From Bacteroidales bacterium (GTDB taxonomy: Bacteria; Bacteroidota; Bacteroidia; Bacteroidales; 4572-128): a stretch of 32,909 nt of DNA. The notes under the pieces were generated by a model. That model saw nothing but the letters and a program-made list of their open reading frames with translations. It did not search any database and had not been told where the DNA came from. The position numbers and the translations under genes were made by a program. The DNA lies in assembly GCA_029938235.1 (NCBI GenBank), contig JAOZVH010000007.1:1-32909 (forward strand), given 5' to 3'. Shown here in pieces: positions 1-32,909 of the stretch. Numbering within the stretch: the stretch's first letter is position 1; every line of letters starts with the position of its first letter.

Positions 1-40
1 ATTAAAACGTTAATAATCAATACTTTATAGTGCGATACAA

Positions 41-133
41 CGAAATCATCGTGGACGATGAATCATTTTATTTTTTTTTTTGATAAAAAAAATATTACAT
101 TTCACAAAAAGGTTCGAAGAACCAAAATTTTTT
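41..133 (+). repeat. Right part of a MITE-like element (left part cut by window edge)
   Basis: cgaaatcatcgtggacgatgaatcat ... tttcacaaaaaggttcgaagaaccaaaatttttt matches both arms of the element at 12664-12912. Confidence 0.6.
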
Positions 134-8535: not shown

Positions 8536-8560
8536 AATTTAATAAATTCTATTTTTTTAT

Positions 8561-8965
8561 AAAATTTCGGCAGTTTTGTGAGAAATTTTTTTTAATAAAT
8601 TATTAAAATTTTAGCGTTTTTTAGAAAAAATTTTTTTTAATAAAATATTAAAATTTTAGCGTTTTTTGGAAGAATTTTTTTTTTAATAAATTATTAAAAT
8701 TTTGCCGTTTTTTGGAAAAAGTTTTTTTTTAATAAATTATTAAAATTTTGCCGTTTTTTGGAAAAAATTTTTTAATAAAATATTAAAATTTCGACGGTTT
8801 TTGAAGAAATTTTTTTTTAATAAATTATTAAAATTTTAGCGTTTTTTGGAAAAAAATTTTTTTTAATAAATTATTAAAATTTTGCCGTTTTTTGGAAAAA
8901 GTTTTTTTAATAAAATATTAAAATTTTGGCAGTTTTTATTAAAAAAATTTTTTTTATTTTGAAAT
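8561..8965 (+). repeat. Family-1 tandem array, forward orientation, 9 units
   Basis: aaaattt(t/c)NNcg.. units start at 8561, 8605, 8650, 8696, 8742, 8785, 8830, 8876 and 8920 (43-46 bp spacing). Confidence 0.85.
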
Positions 8966-11212: not shown

Positions 11213-12235
11213 TTAAATTTTTAACCTCGCATTAGGAACTACAGATTGAGACACAAAATCTCTTTTATCTAAAAATTTATAGTAGCCGGAAATTGCTATC
11301 ATGGCAGCATTATCAGTAGAATATTTTCGCAATGGAAGAAAAACATTCCAATTTTCATTTCGTCCTTTTTTTAATAATTCCTGTCTTAATTGAGAATTTG
11401 CCGAAACTCCACCAGCGATGGTTACTTCTGTAATTCCAGTTTTTTTAACTGCTTTTTTTAATTTATCCATTAAAATTTCAACAATAGTATTTTGCAAAGA
11501 AGCACATAAATCATTTTTATTTTCTTTTATAAAATTAGAATTTTCTTTGACTTTGTCGCGTAAAGAATATAAAAAAGAAGTTTTTAAACCACTAAAACTA
11601 AAATTTAAATCTTTCACCTTAGGCTTAGAAAATTTAAAAGATTTTGGGTCTCCTTTTTTAGATAATTTATCAATAACAGGACCAGAAGGATAATTTAAAC
11701 CCATCATTTTTCCACATTTATCAAAAGCTTCACCTGCGGCATCGTCTATAGTTTCTCCGAGAATTTTCATTTCAAAAAAACTATTTACTTTTACTATTTG
11801 AGTATGACCTCCGGAAACAAGCATCGATAAAAACGGAAATTTTGGAAACTGATATTTAAAATCTCGTTCTTTTAAAAAAACTGATAAAATATGAGCCTCC
11901 AAATGATTTACCTTTATAAGTGGAACATTTAAAGATAATGATAAACCCTTAGCAAAAGAAGTTCCGACAAGAAGAGAACCCATTAAACCAGGTCCCATAG
12001 TAAATGCTATGGCATTAATATCTTCTTTTTTTACATTTGCTAATTTTATCGCTCTTTCCACAACAGGAATAATATTTTTTTGATGCTCTCTGGAAGCAAG
12101 TTCTGGCACAACTCCGCCATAAATTTCATGCACTTCTTGAACACCAATTACATCAGATAGTAAAATACCGTTTTTTATAATAGCAGCAGAAGTATCATCA
12201 CAGGAACTTTCTATTCCAAGAATTATATTATTCAT
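11213..12235 (-). CDS. tsaD: tRNA N6-threonylcarbamoyladenosine synthase TsaD
   Basis: ILGIESSCDDTSAAII, VVPELASREHQKNI, VNHLEAHI, LVSGGHTQIV, IAGGVSANSQLR. Confidence 0.96.
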   Translation of the reverse strand: MNNIILGIESSCDDTSAAIIKNGILLSDVIGVQEVHEIYGGVVPELASREHQKNIIPVVERAIKLANVKKEDINAIAFTMGPGLMGSLLVGTSFAKGLSLSLNVPLIKVNHLEAHILSVFLKERDFKYQFPKFPFLSMLVSGGHTQIVKVNSFFEMKILGETIDDAAGEAFDKCGKMMGLNYPSGPVIDKLSKKGDPKSFKFSKPKVKDLNFSFSGLKTSFLYSLRDKVKENSNFIKENKNDLCASLQNTIVEILMDKLKKAVKKTGITEVTIAGGVSANSQLRQELLKKGRNENWNVFLPLRKYSTDNAAMIAISGYYKFLDKRDFVSQSVVPNARLKI

Positions 12236-12451: not shown

Positions 12452-12479
12452 TTATGGACGTTTTTTTTTTTATAATTTA

Positions 12480-12668
12480 AAATCATTAAAATTTTGGTGT
12501 TTTTGGAAAAAATTTTTTTTTTAATAATTTAAAATCATTAAAATTTTGGCGTTTTTGGAAAAAATTTTTTTTTTAATAATTTAAAATCATTAAAATTTTG
12601 GCGTTTTTGGAAAAAATTTTTTTTTAATAATTAAAAATCATTAAAATTTTGACGTTTTTTGAAAAAAT
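12480..12668 (+). repeat. Family-1 tandem array, about 52-bp period, 4 units
   Basis: attttgg(t/c)gtttttggaaaaaattttttttttaataatttaaaatcattaaa; unit starts 12491, 12543, 12595 and 12646. Confidence 0.85.
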
Positions 12669-12912
12669 TTTGGCTATAGAACCTTTTTGTGAAATATAAA
12701 TTTTTTTTATTAAAAATAAGGTATTATGATTCATCGTCCACGATGATTTCGTAACTTCCATGATTCTGTTTTTTTAAAACATTAAAAATCAATACTTTAA
12801 ATGTTTTCATTTAATATACACAAAATCATCGTGGACGATGAATCATAATCTTTTCACATTTTTTATGTGCGAAAAATTTCCTATCACAAAATGTTCGATA
12901 ACCAAAATTTTT
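12664..12912. mobile_element. MITE-like element with imperfect terminal inverted repeats
   Basis: Left arm AAAATTTTGGCTATAGAACCTTTTTGTGAAATA; right arm reverse complement AAAATTTTGGTTATCGAACATTTTGTGATAGG. Inner inverted pair gattcatcgtccacgatgatttcg / caaaatcatcgtggacgatgaatcat. Confidence 0.5.
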
Positions 12913-13002: not shown

Positions 13003-13010
13003 TAATTTTG
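13003..13010 (+). promoter_or_regulatory. TAnnTTTG-like -7 box (TAATTTTG) immediately before guaA
   Basis: TAATTTTG ends 4 nt before ATG; no clear -33 element seen. Confidence 0.3.
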
Positions 13011-13014
13011 TAAA

Positions 13015-14544
13015 ATGAAAAAAATTTTAATATTAGATTTTGGTTCTCAATATACACAATTAATTGCTCGAAAAATACGAGAATTGAATGTTTATTGTGA
13101 AATTCATCCATATAATAATTTTTCTTTTAAAAATTTTGATGAAATAAAAGGAGTGATACTTTCCGGAAGTCCTTTTTCTGTTAGAGATAATAAATTGAAA
13201 AATTTTGATCTAGCTAAAATAATGTATAAAAAACCTATTTTGGGAATTTGTTATGGTGCTCAATATATTGCTCACAATTTTGGCGGAGAGGTTTTAAATT
13301 CAAAAACAAGAGAGTATGGAAGAGCAAATTTGAAATTTATAAATTCTCAAAATATTCTTTTTAAAGGAGTTTCAAAAAATTCGCAAGTTTGGATGTCCCA
13401 CGGAGACACAATAACAAAAATTCCAAATAATTATGAAATTATTGCAAGTACAGAAGACGTAAAAATAGCATCTTTTCAAATAAAAAATGAAAAAATTTAT
13501 GGCATACAATTCCATCCGGAAGTTTATCATACTACAGATGGGAAAAAACTTTTAAAAAATTTTGTAATTGATATTTGTAAAATTTCTGATAACTGGACAC
13601 CAAAATCATTCGTTGACGAAAGTGTGAAAAATTTGAAGGAAGAAATTAAAAATGAAAAAGTTATACTTGGACTTTCTGGTGGTGTAGATTCAACCGTCGC
13701 AGGAATTTTATTAAAAAAAGCAATAGGAAAAAATTTGACGTGTTTGTTTATTGATAATGGAATGTTGCGAAAAAATGAGTTCCAAGAAGTTTTAAATTCT
13801 TATGAAAATATGGGTTTAAATGTAATTGGAATTAAGGCAGAAGAAGATTTTTTATATCCATTAAAAAATGTTACAGACCCAGAAAAAAAAAGGAAAATTA
13901 TAGGAAAAACTTTTATTGAAATATTTGATAAAGAAGCAAATAAATTAAAAGATATAAAATTTTTAGCACAAGGAACTATTTATCCAGATATTATAGAATC
14001 TATTTCTGTAAAAGGTCCATCAGCAACAATAAAATCTCATCATAATGTTGGAGGTTTACCCGATTTTATGAAATTAAAAATAGTCGAGCCATTAAAATTG
14101 TTGTTTAAAGACGAAGTGCGAAAAATTGGTAAAATTCTAAAAATAAAAGATGAATTACTGCAGAGACATCCTTTTCCTGGTCCTGGTTTAGCAATTAGAA
14201 TTCTCGGCGATATCACAAAAGAAAAAATAAAAATTCTTCAGGAAGCAGATGATATTTTTATAAATGGCTTAAAAGAAAATAATCTTTATGATAAAGTCTG
14301 GCAAGCGGCAACTATTTTATTACCAGTCCAGTCTGTTGGAGTTATGGGTGATGAAAGAACTTATGAAAAAGCAATTGTTTTACGTGCAGTTTCATCTACT
14401 GATGGAATGACAGCAGATTTTTCTCATCTACCTTATAAATTTCTTGCTAAAATTTCAAATAAAATTATTAATAAAGTAAGAGGCATAAATAGAGTTGTTT
14501 ATGATATAAGTTCAAAACCTCCGGCAACAATAGAATGGGAATAA
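13015..14544 (+). CDS. guaA: GMP synthase (glutamine-hydrolysing)
   Basis: [63 protein letters not shown]-terminus [13 protein letters not shown]. Confidence 0.98.
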
Positions 14545-19788: not shown

Positions 19789-19939
19789 TTTTTTAATTTT
19801 TTTAAATTATTAAATTCAAAACGAATTTAAGATTTAAAATCGTATTAAAAAAAATAAAAATTTTAATTAGTTTTTTTTATAAAAAATTTTTTTGAAATAA
19901 AATTTAAAAAATTTTACGTTTTTGGAAAAAAAATTAATT

Positions 19940-20340
19940 CAAAATAAAAATTTTTTTTCAAAAAAACGTCCAAAATTTTAATATTTTTTATTTTGAGATT
20001 AAAAAAATTTTTTCAAAAAATGCCCAAAATTTCAATGTTTTTTAATCTCAAAATTAAAAAATTTTTTCAAAAAATCGCCCAAAATTTTAATATTTTTTAA
20101 TTTCAAAATAAAAAAAATTTTTTTCAAAAAACGTCAAAATTTTAATATTTTTTAATTTCAAAATAAAAATTTTTTTTAAAAAATCGTAAAAATTTTAATA
20201 TTTTTAATTTCAAAATAAAAAAAATTTTTTTTAAAAAACGTCCAAAATTTCAATATTTTTAAAAAACAACATTTGGTAGAAACAATGTTAAAAAACTTTT
20301 TTTCAAAAATCGTCCAAAATTTTAATATTTATTAAAAAAT
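19940..20340 (-). repeat. Family-1 tandem array, 7 units, mostly 52-56 bp spacing
   Basis: aaaaaacgtccaaaattttaatattttttaatttcaaaataaaaa-type units; core positions 19971, 20025, 20080, 20135, about 20187, 20243 and 20315 (last spacing 72). Confidence 0.8.
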
Positions 20341-28366: not shown

Positions 28367-28391
28367 ATTTATATTTTTATTAATAATAAAA

Positions 28392-28660
28392 ATTGCAAAA
28401 AAAACGTCATTTTTGGAAAAATTTTTTTATTAAAAAATTGCAAAAAAAACGTCATTTTTGGAAAAAATTTTTTTTAATGAAAAATTGCAAAAAAAACGTC
28501 ATTTTTGGAAAAAATTTTTTTTAATGAAAAATTGCAAAAAAAACGTCATTTTTGGAAAAAATTTTTTATTAAAAAATTGCAAAAAAAACGTCATTTTTGG
28601 AAAAATTTTTTTATTAAAAAATTGCAAAAAAAACGTCATTTTTGGAAAAAATTTTTTTAT
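28392..28660 (+). repeat. Tandem array, 45-47 bp period, 6 units
   Basis: attgcaaaaaaaacgtcatttttggaaaaattttttt at 28392, 28437, 28484, 28531, 28576 and 28621. Confidence 0.92.
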
Positions 28661-30723
28661 AAAATTTTATATTCCACTCTTCTATTTAATTGACGACCTT
28701 CTTTAGTATTATTATCGGCAATTGCTTGCTTATAAGCATAACCTTTAAACTCTAAACGACCTTTTGAAATTCCATTTTTTATTAAATAATTAACAACTGA
28801 TTTTGCTCGGTCATTTGATAATTTTTCGTTATAAGAAAGTGAACCAACATTATCAGTATGTCCAGAAATTTCTATTCTAATTTTTGGATGATCATTTAAA
28901 ACTTTTAAAAGACGATTTAATTCAGTTTTCGAAGCATCGCGAAGCGAAGATTTCGCAGTGTCAAAAAATACATTTCTAAGAATAATTTTCACCCCTTTTT
29001 CTAACTTTTTTAAACCAATATTTTTTACAATTTCTTGATAATTAGAAGTTTCTGGAATATCAAAATTTTCTGAATGGAATAAATAATTTTCTGATTTTAT
29101 TGCAATTCCATAATTTTTTCCCGAAGGCAAAGAAATTAAATATTTTCCAGTTTTGCTGTTAGATATGAAATTTGCAATTACTTCATTTTTATCATTATCA
29201 ACTATTTCTATAGTTGCTCCGATAGGAATTTCTGTTTTTTCGTCAAAAACTATCCCTTTTAAAATTGTTAATCTTGCAGTTTGAATTTCTATTTTCTGCT
29301 CTATTATTGTTTCCGGAAGCGATTTTTCTAAACACGCAAGTAAATTATCTTCGCTGCTTTGCAAAAGTGGTTTTTCTGGTCCGAGAAAAGTTATAATATA
29401 AATATCCTGTCCACCAAAACCATCTTTTTTCTCCGAAGAATAATATGCTTTTTTTCCATTTGCCGCCATAACCATAAAAATATCATCGCCAGTTGTATTA
29501 ATGGGATAACCAAGATTTTCAGGTTTAGACCATTTTCCATCTTTACCTTTTACAGATTTAAAAATATCAAAACCTCCCATAGATGTATGTCCAGTTGAGC
29601 TAAAATAAATTGTTCTTCCATCTGGATGCAGAAAAACACTTCTCTCATCATATTTTGTATTTATCACATTACCAATGTTTTGAATGTTTTTCCATTTACC
29701 TTTTTCGTTTATCGTACTTTTAAAAATATCATGTTTGCCAAAATTATTTTCTTCATTATTACTAACAAAAAATAAATTTTTTCCGTCCGGAGAAAAAGAA
29801 ATATATTCTTCATGAGCCTTAGAATTTATGCCTTTTAAAGCTTTAGGTTTACTCCATTTTTCACCTTCCATTCGACAAAAATAAAGATCACCTCCTCTTT
29901 TCAAACCGTCAAAAATAAATAAACCCTGTCCGTCATTTTGAATTCCAACTGTTGCATTATTTTCATCATTATTTAATGGTTTTCCAGCATTTACAGATTT
30001 TTGCCAAACACCATTCAAATTATGAGAAATATAAATATCTTCATAAAAACGTCCGTCAGAAGCAATTTGACCACCCTTAGTGTCCGCTCGTCTGGAAGTG
30101 AAAAATAAAATACTTTCATCAGCAGAAATAAATGGACAATAATCATCAAACTTAGAATTTACATTTTCACCAATATTGTCAATAAAAACACGAACTGGAT
30201 TTTTTAAAAATTTTTTACCATTAGAACATTCAAAAATTTTTTTTTCTAAAATTTCCACATTTTTTTTCAAATTTTTTTCACTTAGAGAATTTTTATAAGA
30301 TTTGTATTTTTCTATTGCTCTATCAAACTCATAATTAAAATGATACGCCTGAGCCATCAAAAATAAAATATCCTCAGCAACTTCTGTATTTTTTTCATAA
30401 GACTTTTCCAAAAATTTTATACTTTTTATTTTTTCATTAGATTGCAAATAACAAGCACCTATTTTATAAGATAATTCTGCAGTATGAGAATTATAATTAT
30501 TTGCTTTCAAATAATGTTTCAAAGCTAAAACATAAGCCGCTTTATTTCCCAAAGAAAAATAATATTCTCCATCTTCTATATCTTGCCATGCTTTTTTAAA
30601 AGCTTTTTTATCTGACTTATCCTTAATTTCTTTTTTGAAAAATTTTTTTTTAATGATAATATGTTCTTGCGAAAGAATTACATTAGGAAATAATAAGAAT
30701 AAAATAAATATTTTTAATTTCAT
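28657..30723 (-). CDS. OmpA-family protein with TPR-like, PD40 (WD40-like) and peptidoglycan-binding domains
   Basis: Signal peptide; repeated FSPDGKNLFFVSNNE / LHPDGRTIYFSSTGHTSMGGFDIF / GKKAYYSSEKKDGFGGQDIY; C-terminal RIEISGHTDNVGSLSYNEKLSNDRAKSVVNYLIKNGI. Confidence 0.92.
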   Translation of the reverse strand: MKLKIFILFLLFPNVILSQEHIIIKKKFFKKEIKDKSDKKAFKKAWQDIEDGEYYFSLGNKAAYVLALKHYLKANNYNSHTAELSYKIGACYLQSNEKIKSIKFLEKSYEKNTEVAEDILFLMAQAYHFNYEFDRAIEKYKSYKNSLSEKNLKKNVEILEKKIFECSNGKKFLKNPVRVFIDNIGENVNSKFDDYCPFISADESILFFTSRRADTKGGQIASDGRFYEDIYISHNLNGVWQKSVNAGKPLNNDENNATVGIQNDGQGLFIFDGLKRGGDLYFCRMEGEKWSKPKALKGINSKAHEEYISFSPDGKNLFFVSNNEENNFGKHDIFKSTINEKGKWKNIQNIGNVINTKYDERSVFLHPDGRTIYFSSTGHTSMGGFDIFKSVKGKDGKWSKPENLGYPINTTGDDIFMVMAANGKKAYYSSEKKDGFGGQDIYIITFLGPEKPLLQSSEDNLLACLEKSLPETIIEQKIEIQTARLTILKGIVFDEKTEIPIGATIEIVDNDKNEVIANFISNSKTGKYLISLPSGKNYGIAIKSENYLFHSENFDIPETSNYQEIVKNIGLKKLEKGVKIILRNVFFDTAKSSLRDASKTELNRLLKVLNDHPKIRIEISGHTDNVGSLSYNEKLSNDRAKSVVNYLIKNGISKGRLEFKGYAYKQAIADNNTKEGRQLNRRVEYKIL

Positions 30724-32648: not shown

Positions 32649-32659
32649 ACTTTAATTGA

Positions 32660-32909
32660 AAATTAAAAAAAAATGTCATTTTGGGAGAAATTTTTTTGAA
32701 ATAAATTTGAAAAAAAATGCCATTTTTTGAGAAAAATTTTTTTTTTGAAATAAAAATTAAAAAAATTGCCGTTTTTGGAGAAAAATTTTTTTTGAAATAA
32801 AAATTAAAAAAATTGCCGTTTTTGGAGAAAAATTTATTATTTGAAATAAAAATTAAAAAAATTGCCGTTTTTGGAGAAAAATTTTTTTTTGAAATAAAAA
32901 TTAAAAAAA
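32660..32909 (+). repeat. Family-1 tandem array running off the right window edge
   Basis: attgccgtttttggagaaaaattttttttgaaataaaaattaaaaaa; clear unit starts 32765, 32812 and 32861, preceded by two diverged units. Confidence 0.88.

Follow-up and report, generated by a model that had tools for sequence, protein, structure and literature searches.

The divergent genes tsaD (11213-12235, minus strand) and guaA (13015-14544, plus strand) are separated by a gap that holds a stretch with inverted ends and internal palindromes, which raises the question of whether a mobile element lies there, what could have moved it and whether it matters to either gene. An earlier note on this DNA had placed a MITE-like element in this intergenic region, at 12664-12912, and that location stands. 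The window, the whole 32,909-nt stretch that was analysed, is contig 105 in the incomplete MAG G000 (3.36 Mb, 328 contigs, 91.7% complete).

The element itself spans 12672-12903 (232 bp) and is bracketed by AAAATTTT, an 8-bp target-site duplication without mismatches, at 12664-12671 and 12904-12911. On the plus strand it starts with GGCTATAGAACC and finishes with GTTCGATAACC, sitting directly between the two AAAATTTT copies. The inverted ends had been given as about 33 bp long; inverted ends are present, but since the outer AAAATTTT of each is target duplication, the terminal repeat proper is an imperfect one of about 20 bp (GGCTATAGAACCTTTTTGTG / GGTTATCGAACATTTTGTG), and the limits of the element are corrected to those above. 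The two inverted 16-nt palindromes described inside it are indeed there, within 30-nt arms that are 97% complementary and 67 nt apart. Open reading frames lying entirely within the element reach at most 28 aa, which bears out its description as non-autonomous, and as a non-coding element it is classed as a MITE. The single-stranded fold of this stretch has a predicted energy of -55.8 kcal/mol, against -20.2 kcal/mol for shuffled sequences (z -11.7). An Rfam search of the window matched no family. The features are as follows.

12664-12671, no strand: left target-site duplication AAAATTTT, matching 12904-12911 exactly
12672-12691, plus strand: left terminal inverted repeat GGCTATAGAACCTTTTTGTG, an end common to other family copies
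12674-12679, within the left terminal inverted repeat: variable tip segment CTATAG, one of the tabulated tip variants
12723-12752, plus strand: left arm of the inner inverted repeat, 30 nt, 97% complementary to 12820-12849
12731-12746, inside the left inner arm: REP-like palindrome TCATCGTCCACGATGA
12753-12819, no strand: A/T-rich, non-coding loop separating the inner arms
12820-12849, minus strand: right arm of the inner inverted repeat, containing TCATCGTGGACGATGA at 12826-12841
12885-12903, minus strand: right terminal inverted repeat, GGTTATCGAACATTTTGTG read inwards, an end seen in copies
12904-12911, no strand: right target-site duplication AAAATTTT, matching the left one
12461-12671, plus strand: left part of an A/T tandem array with a 52-bp unit (Tandem Repeats Finder), which resumes after 12911 and runs to about 12965
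1-123, minus strand: second, partial family copy of subfamily B, cut by the contig start (nhmmer E 4e-32)

Directly after the partial copy at 1-123 comes AAAATTTT (124-131).

The 52-bp A/T tandem array is interrupted by the element, and deleting exactly 240 bp (the element plus one 8-bp copy) restores it. The rejoined array comprises 5.2 units and scores 455 in Tandem Repeats Finder, compared with 380 when the element is present. As excision yields an unbroken array, the array came first and was split by insertion of the element. The interrupted array took the place of an orthologous empty site, as the guaA locus of the sole congener met in our searches (G001, a fragmented Bacteroidetes MAG, 73% complete) has a different upstream neighbour than in G000; the comparison of loci proposed earlier thus showed the element to be absent at the congener guaA, but did not provide a clean empty site. 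Intergenic A/T tandem arrays occur at five places in the window (8560-8956, 12461-12671, 19934-20262, 28384-28664 and 32659-32909), all long, with units of about 45-55 bp and related motifs such as AAAATTTTGGCGTTTTTTGGAAAAAATTTT. Intergenic DNA in the host genus is filled with such arrays and with palindromic repeats.

A search of G000 with the 249-bp sequence by BLAST gave 104 matches, so that the family is far from being limited to two occurrences. Loci were taken around search matches only. Subfamily A is represented by six complete copies in G000 with 97-100% identity and two palindromes each, while the larger subfamily B has one palindrome. Strict pairing of ends in loci from G000 and G001 recovered 40 complete copies, mostly 210-235 bp long. 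Most target sites are almost pure A followed by T; part of the matching between flanks is therefore compositional, and a permutation control was needed. Perfect 8-bp duplications flank 27 of the 40 copies, against 7.6 on average and never more than 16 across 5000 permutations; the other 13 are imperfect, and allowing up to one mismatch brings the count to 34. The perfect duplications are most often AAAATTTT (n=11) or AAATTTTT (n=8), and the rarer ones include the distinctive AAAACTTT, TTAATTTT and ATATTTGT. The copies are thus short and non-coding, have terminal inverted repeats in common and are flanked by target-site duplications. Multiple copies with consistent ends, a duplication of its own at most copies and insertion into the array confirm that the element belongs to a true miniature transposon family, new as a family and ordinary in kind.

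Near-identical copies are carried by the congener. In 57 further genomes searched with the element, only short A/T-rich matches were found and these were set aside. The end pattern, sought in 394 genomes of the order, had 89 matches in G000 and 15 in G001 (none for a control read backwards), with isolated one-mismatch matches in 3 of the other 392 genomes, and the family was not found in any other sampled genome of the order. Phage and plasmid records contained no matches, and IMG/VR contained none to an exact 23-mer from the palindrome region. The MITE family has multiplied within, and among the sampled genomes is restricted to, one uncultured genus. The analysis documents a MITE family that is abundant and appears to have been active recently.

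The element ends 111 bp from guaA and starts 436 bp from tsaD, and it had been proposed that it could affect the expression of both genes. We found no support for such an effect: the sole TAnnTTTG-like promoter box of the intergenic region (13003-13010) lies between the element and guaA, near the start of that gene, and the congener guaA retains this box with no element upstream. A divergent intergenic position and the potential for a strong hairpin would suit an element fixed in the tsaD/guaA region as a regulator or terminator, for which conservation at this locus across genera would have argued. The element is instead absent at the congener guaA, which nonetheless keeps its box, and from other sampled genera, and dozens of copies lie at unrelated loci. 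We consider the chance that it is a fixed element of this kind to be close to negligible.

With up to two mismatches allowed, the inner palindrome, TCATCGT(CC/GG)ACGATGA, is matched 73 times on each strand genome-wide, compared with 2 for the control read backwards, and none are expected by chance in the window, so the palindrome is not a product of chance. Loci around the matches contain 117 distinct CGTCCACG units, 52 with a CGTC context and 40 with that of the MITE (GATTCA). Units outside the MITE form CGTC-tagged, REP-like inverted pairs or hairpins (L050, L115, L117, L133 and L138), as in the pair CATATGCGTCATCGTCCACG...CGTGGACGATGACGCATATGG at L050. The inner palindrome is therefore not specific to the MITE. 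Read by eye, the REP-like pairs at L017 and L050 have equal arms and a loop that appears inverted between them. We also observed a multicopy element ending ...CTTAGACTGACGGCTATGGCG (or ...TTGCG) that joins exactly at CGTCCACG palindromes (L201-L230), including palindromes within MITE copies at L208, L225, L226 and L227. In G000 this element is mostly close to contig ends, with its body missing from the assembly, and no gene of it was found in the loci around matches; it is possibly IS200/IS605- or REP-associated. A further short hairpin repeat, AACATTGGAGGTTTTTTTTAACCTCCAATGTT, recurs with variants near L019, L116, L133, L203, L220 and other loci.

The occurrence of palindrome units outside the MITE, and of a multicopy element that ends exactly at them even within MITE copies, would fit a REP/BIME-like or IS200/IS605-like element in which the palindromes are active and the flanking ends incidental. 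Complete copies are delimited by GG...CC ends and 8-bp duplications and not by the palindromes, and IS200/IS605 elements are not known to make target duplications. Because the duplications lie just outside the terminal repeats, this explanation is largely refuted and we regard it as very improbable. As part of a miniature transposon, the palindromes would more plausibly be passengers.

We propose that the family is a genus-specific, non-autonomous, cut-down DNA transposon moved in trans, probably by an ISL3-type transposase. A DDE transposase, most likely of the ISL3 family, would recognise the ends of about 20 bp (GGYT...AACCTTTTTGTG) and insert the element at 8-bp targets rich in A/T, such as AAAATTTT, which are duplicated in the process. 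In this case the element inserted into the A/T tandem array occupying the tsaD-guaA gap, with the inner REP-like palindromes, which exist also outside the MITE, probably carried along. The ends, GGYTCTTNGAACCTTTTTGTG, together with the 8-bp A/T duplications, point to a transposase of this type. The GGNTCTT... start of ISL3-type ends is found in the family, with CTT in 66 of 113 canonical tips and mostly AT in the others; the window copy has AT rather than CTT at both ends. The A/T-rich 8-bp target duplication of ISL3 type is also present.

Support for this assignment comes from ISL3 elements of the same order. G036, a genome from another family of the order, contains many ISL3 transposase fragments, mostly followed by the end GGTTCTTTATAAGAGTGTGTGG or close variants. 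At about a dozen of these loci, comparison of coordinates places the end form GGTTCTTTANAAGAGTGTGTGG 34-117 bp past the end of the transposase match, the exceptions to the pattern being two loci, L184 and L191. An ungapped alignment of the G036 end with the MITE end, GGTTCTTGGAACCTTTTTGTG, shows GGTTCTT at positions 1-7 and GTG at 19-21 in common. In G023, the ends of an ISL3 locus are GGTTCTTCGTCA. For the ISL3-family transposon Tn7546, the published ends are GGGTCTTCGGA and the duplication is the 8-bp AAAATAAG (PMC9782665). In G036, which has ISL3 fragments and belongs to that other family, we also noted a 79-bp candidate mini-element (L162, contig C157, 1443-1521) with ends GGCTCTTCAACCCTTTTTGAGGAAA and GGTTCTTGGAGCATTTTTGTGAAAC and mismatched flanking 8-mers.

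Three transposase families were searched for, ISL3, IS1595 and IS6/IS240. Searches for ISL3 transposases with PF01610 and NF033550 were negative in G000 (92% complete) and G001 (73%), and no autonomous copy with the family ends was found in either of these incomplete, fragmented MAGs. Multicopy IS elements are often missing from fragmented MAGs, so the absence of an ISL3 gene is weak evidence. It does leave room for the same MITE to have been moved by a different DDE family that makes 8-bp duplications (IS6, IS1595, IS256, ISKra4 or an undescribed one), as such duplications are not unique to ISL3. Searches for IS1595 (PF12762) and IS6/IS240 (PF13610) transposases were likewise negative in the two incomplete MAGs, and both the GGYTCTT tip and the GTG at 19-21 agree with the ISL3 ends that we determined within the order. 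We regard a family other than ISL3 as unlikely.

The ends of the copies show an odd pattern. Between GG and AACC, the 113 canonical tips vary at four small sites, (C/T)T(AT/CTT)(A/C/G)(G/T), in many combinations. Five copies with an identical 199-bp core bear four different tip pairs, and three copies with an identical 189-bp core bear two. When copy pairs were chosen by identity in one half of the core, which avoids selection on the compared quantity, tips differed by 0.078 events per nt and the other core half by 0.0095 (10 pairs from 11 copies, which are not independent); selecting on the opposite half gave 5 tip events and 0 core events in 5 pairs. The outermost few bases thus appear reshuffled between otherwise identical copies, a mosaic that needs read-level or long-read confirmation. 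The AT/CTT alternation of the tips recurs in the palindrome arms as AT versus AAG/CTT.

This mosaic could possibly arise by change of the tip during transposition, by exchange between copies or as an artefact of assembly. The last is a serious possibility, as bubble merging by an assembler can make repeat interiors uniform and yet leave differences beside unique flanks in place. Template switching between inverted repeats is a described mechanism (PMC8604942). Homogenisation of left and right arms by this route was not supported, as a test for equal left and right tips gave no excess at three of the four sites and a marginal one at the fourth (P 0.04, uncorrected). Circle junctions through the palindromic tips would give reverse-complemented tips, which are absent among the canonical tips. 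It is conceivable, though quite unlikely, that transposition, or its repair, can write a new outermost tip of 6-7 nt between GG and AACC, drawn from the module set C/T, AT/CTT, A/C/G and G/T, while the core stays identical; such a tip-diversifying pathway is not known for bacterial MITEs. If the mosaicism is biological, the family would preserve in its copies a natural record of the changes that transposon ends undergo at successive jumps.

Among known systems, the family has in common with ISL3 elements (Tn7546, PMC9782665; the G036 fragments) the terminal GG(Y/G)TCTT and A/T-rich 8-bp duplications, and with the G036 ends also the GTG at positions 19-21. Unlike ISL3 elements, it has no transposase gene, and neither MAG yielded one of the ISL3, IS1595 or IS6/IS240 families. 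MITECca01 of Cardinium (PMC9769881) is likewise a high-copy MITE of about 240 bp, mostly intergenic, in a repeat-rich Bacteroidota genome; it derives from an IS982-family element, and that genome also contains the parent, whereas no parent was found in G000 or G001. CGTC-tagged REPs (PMC3733652), known from Bacteroidetes among other phyla, are the nearest relatives of the inner palindrome. They too are short palindromic units, mostly in inverted pairs, longer palindromes that enclose REP pairs have been reported as well, and the CGTC tag is present in many of our copies outside the MITE. Stem and loop lengths differ, at 8-9 bp and 4-5 nt in the published REPs and at most 7 bp and 2 nt in TCATCGT CC ACGATGA, which falls short of the published definition, and the tag position reads GATTC in the palindrome within the MITE. 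In Porphyromonas gingivalis (PMC4596501), a Bacteroidota MITE is also linked to tandem repeats; there a minisatellite lies inside the MITE, whereas here the MITE lies inside a tandem array.
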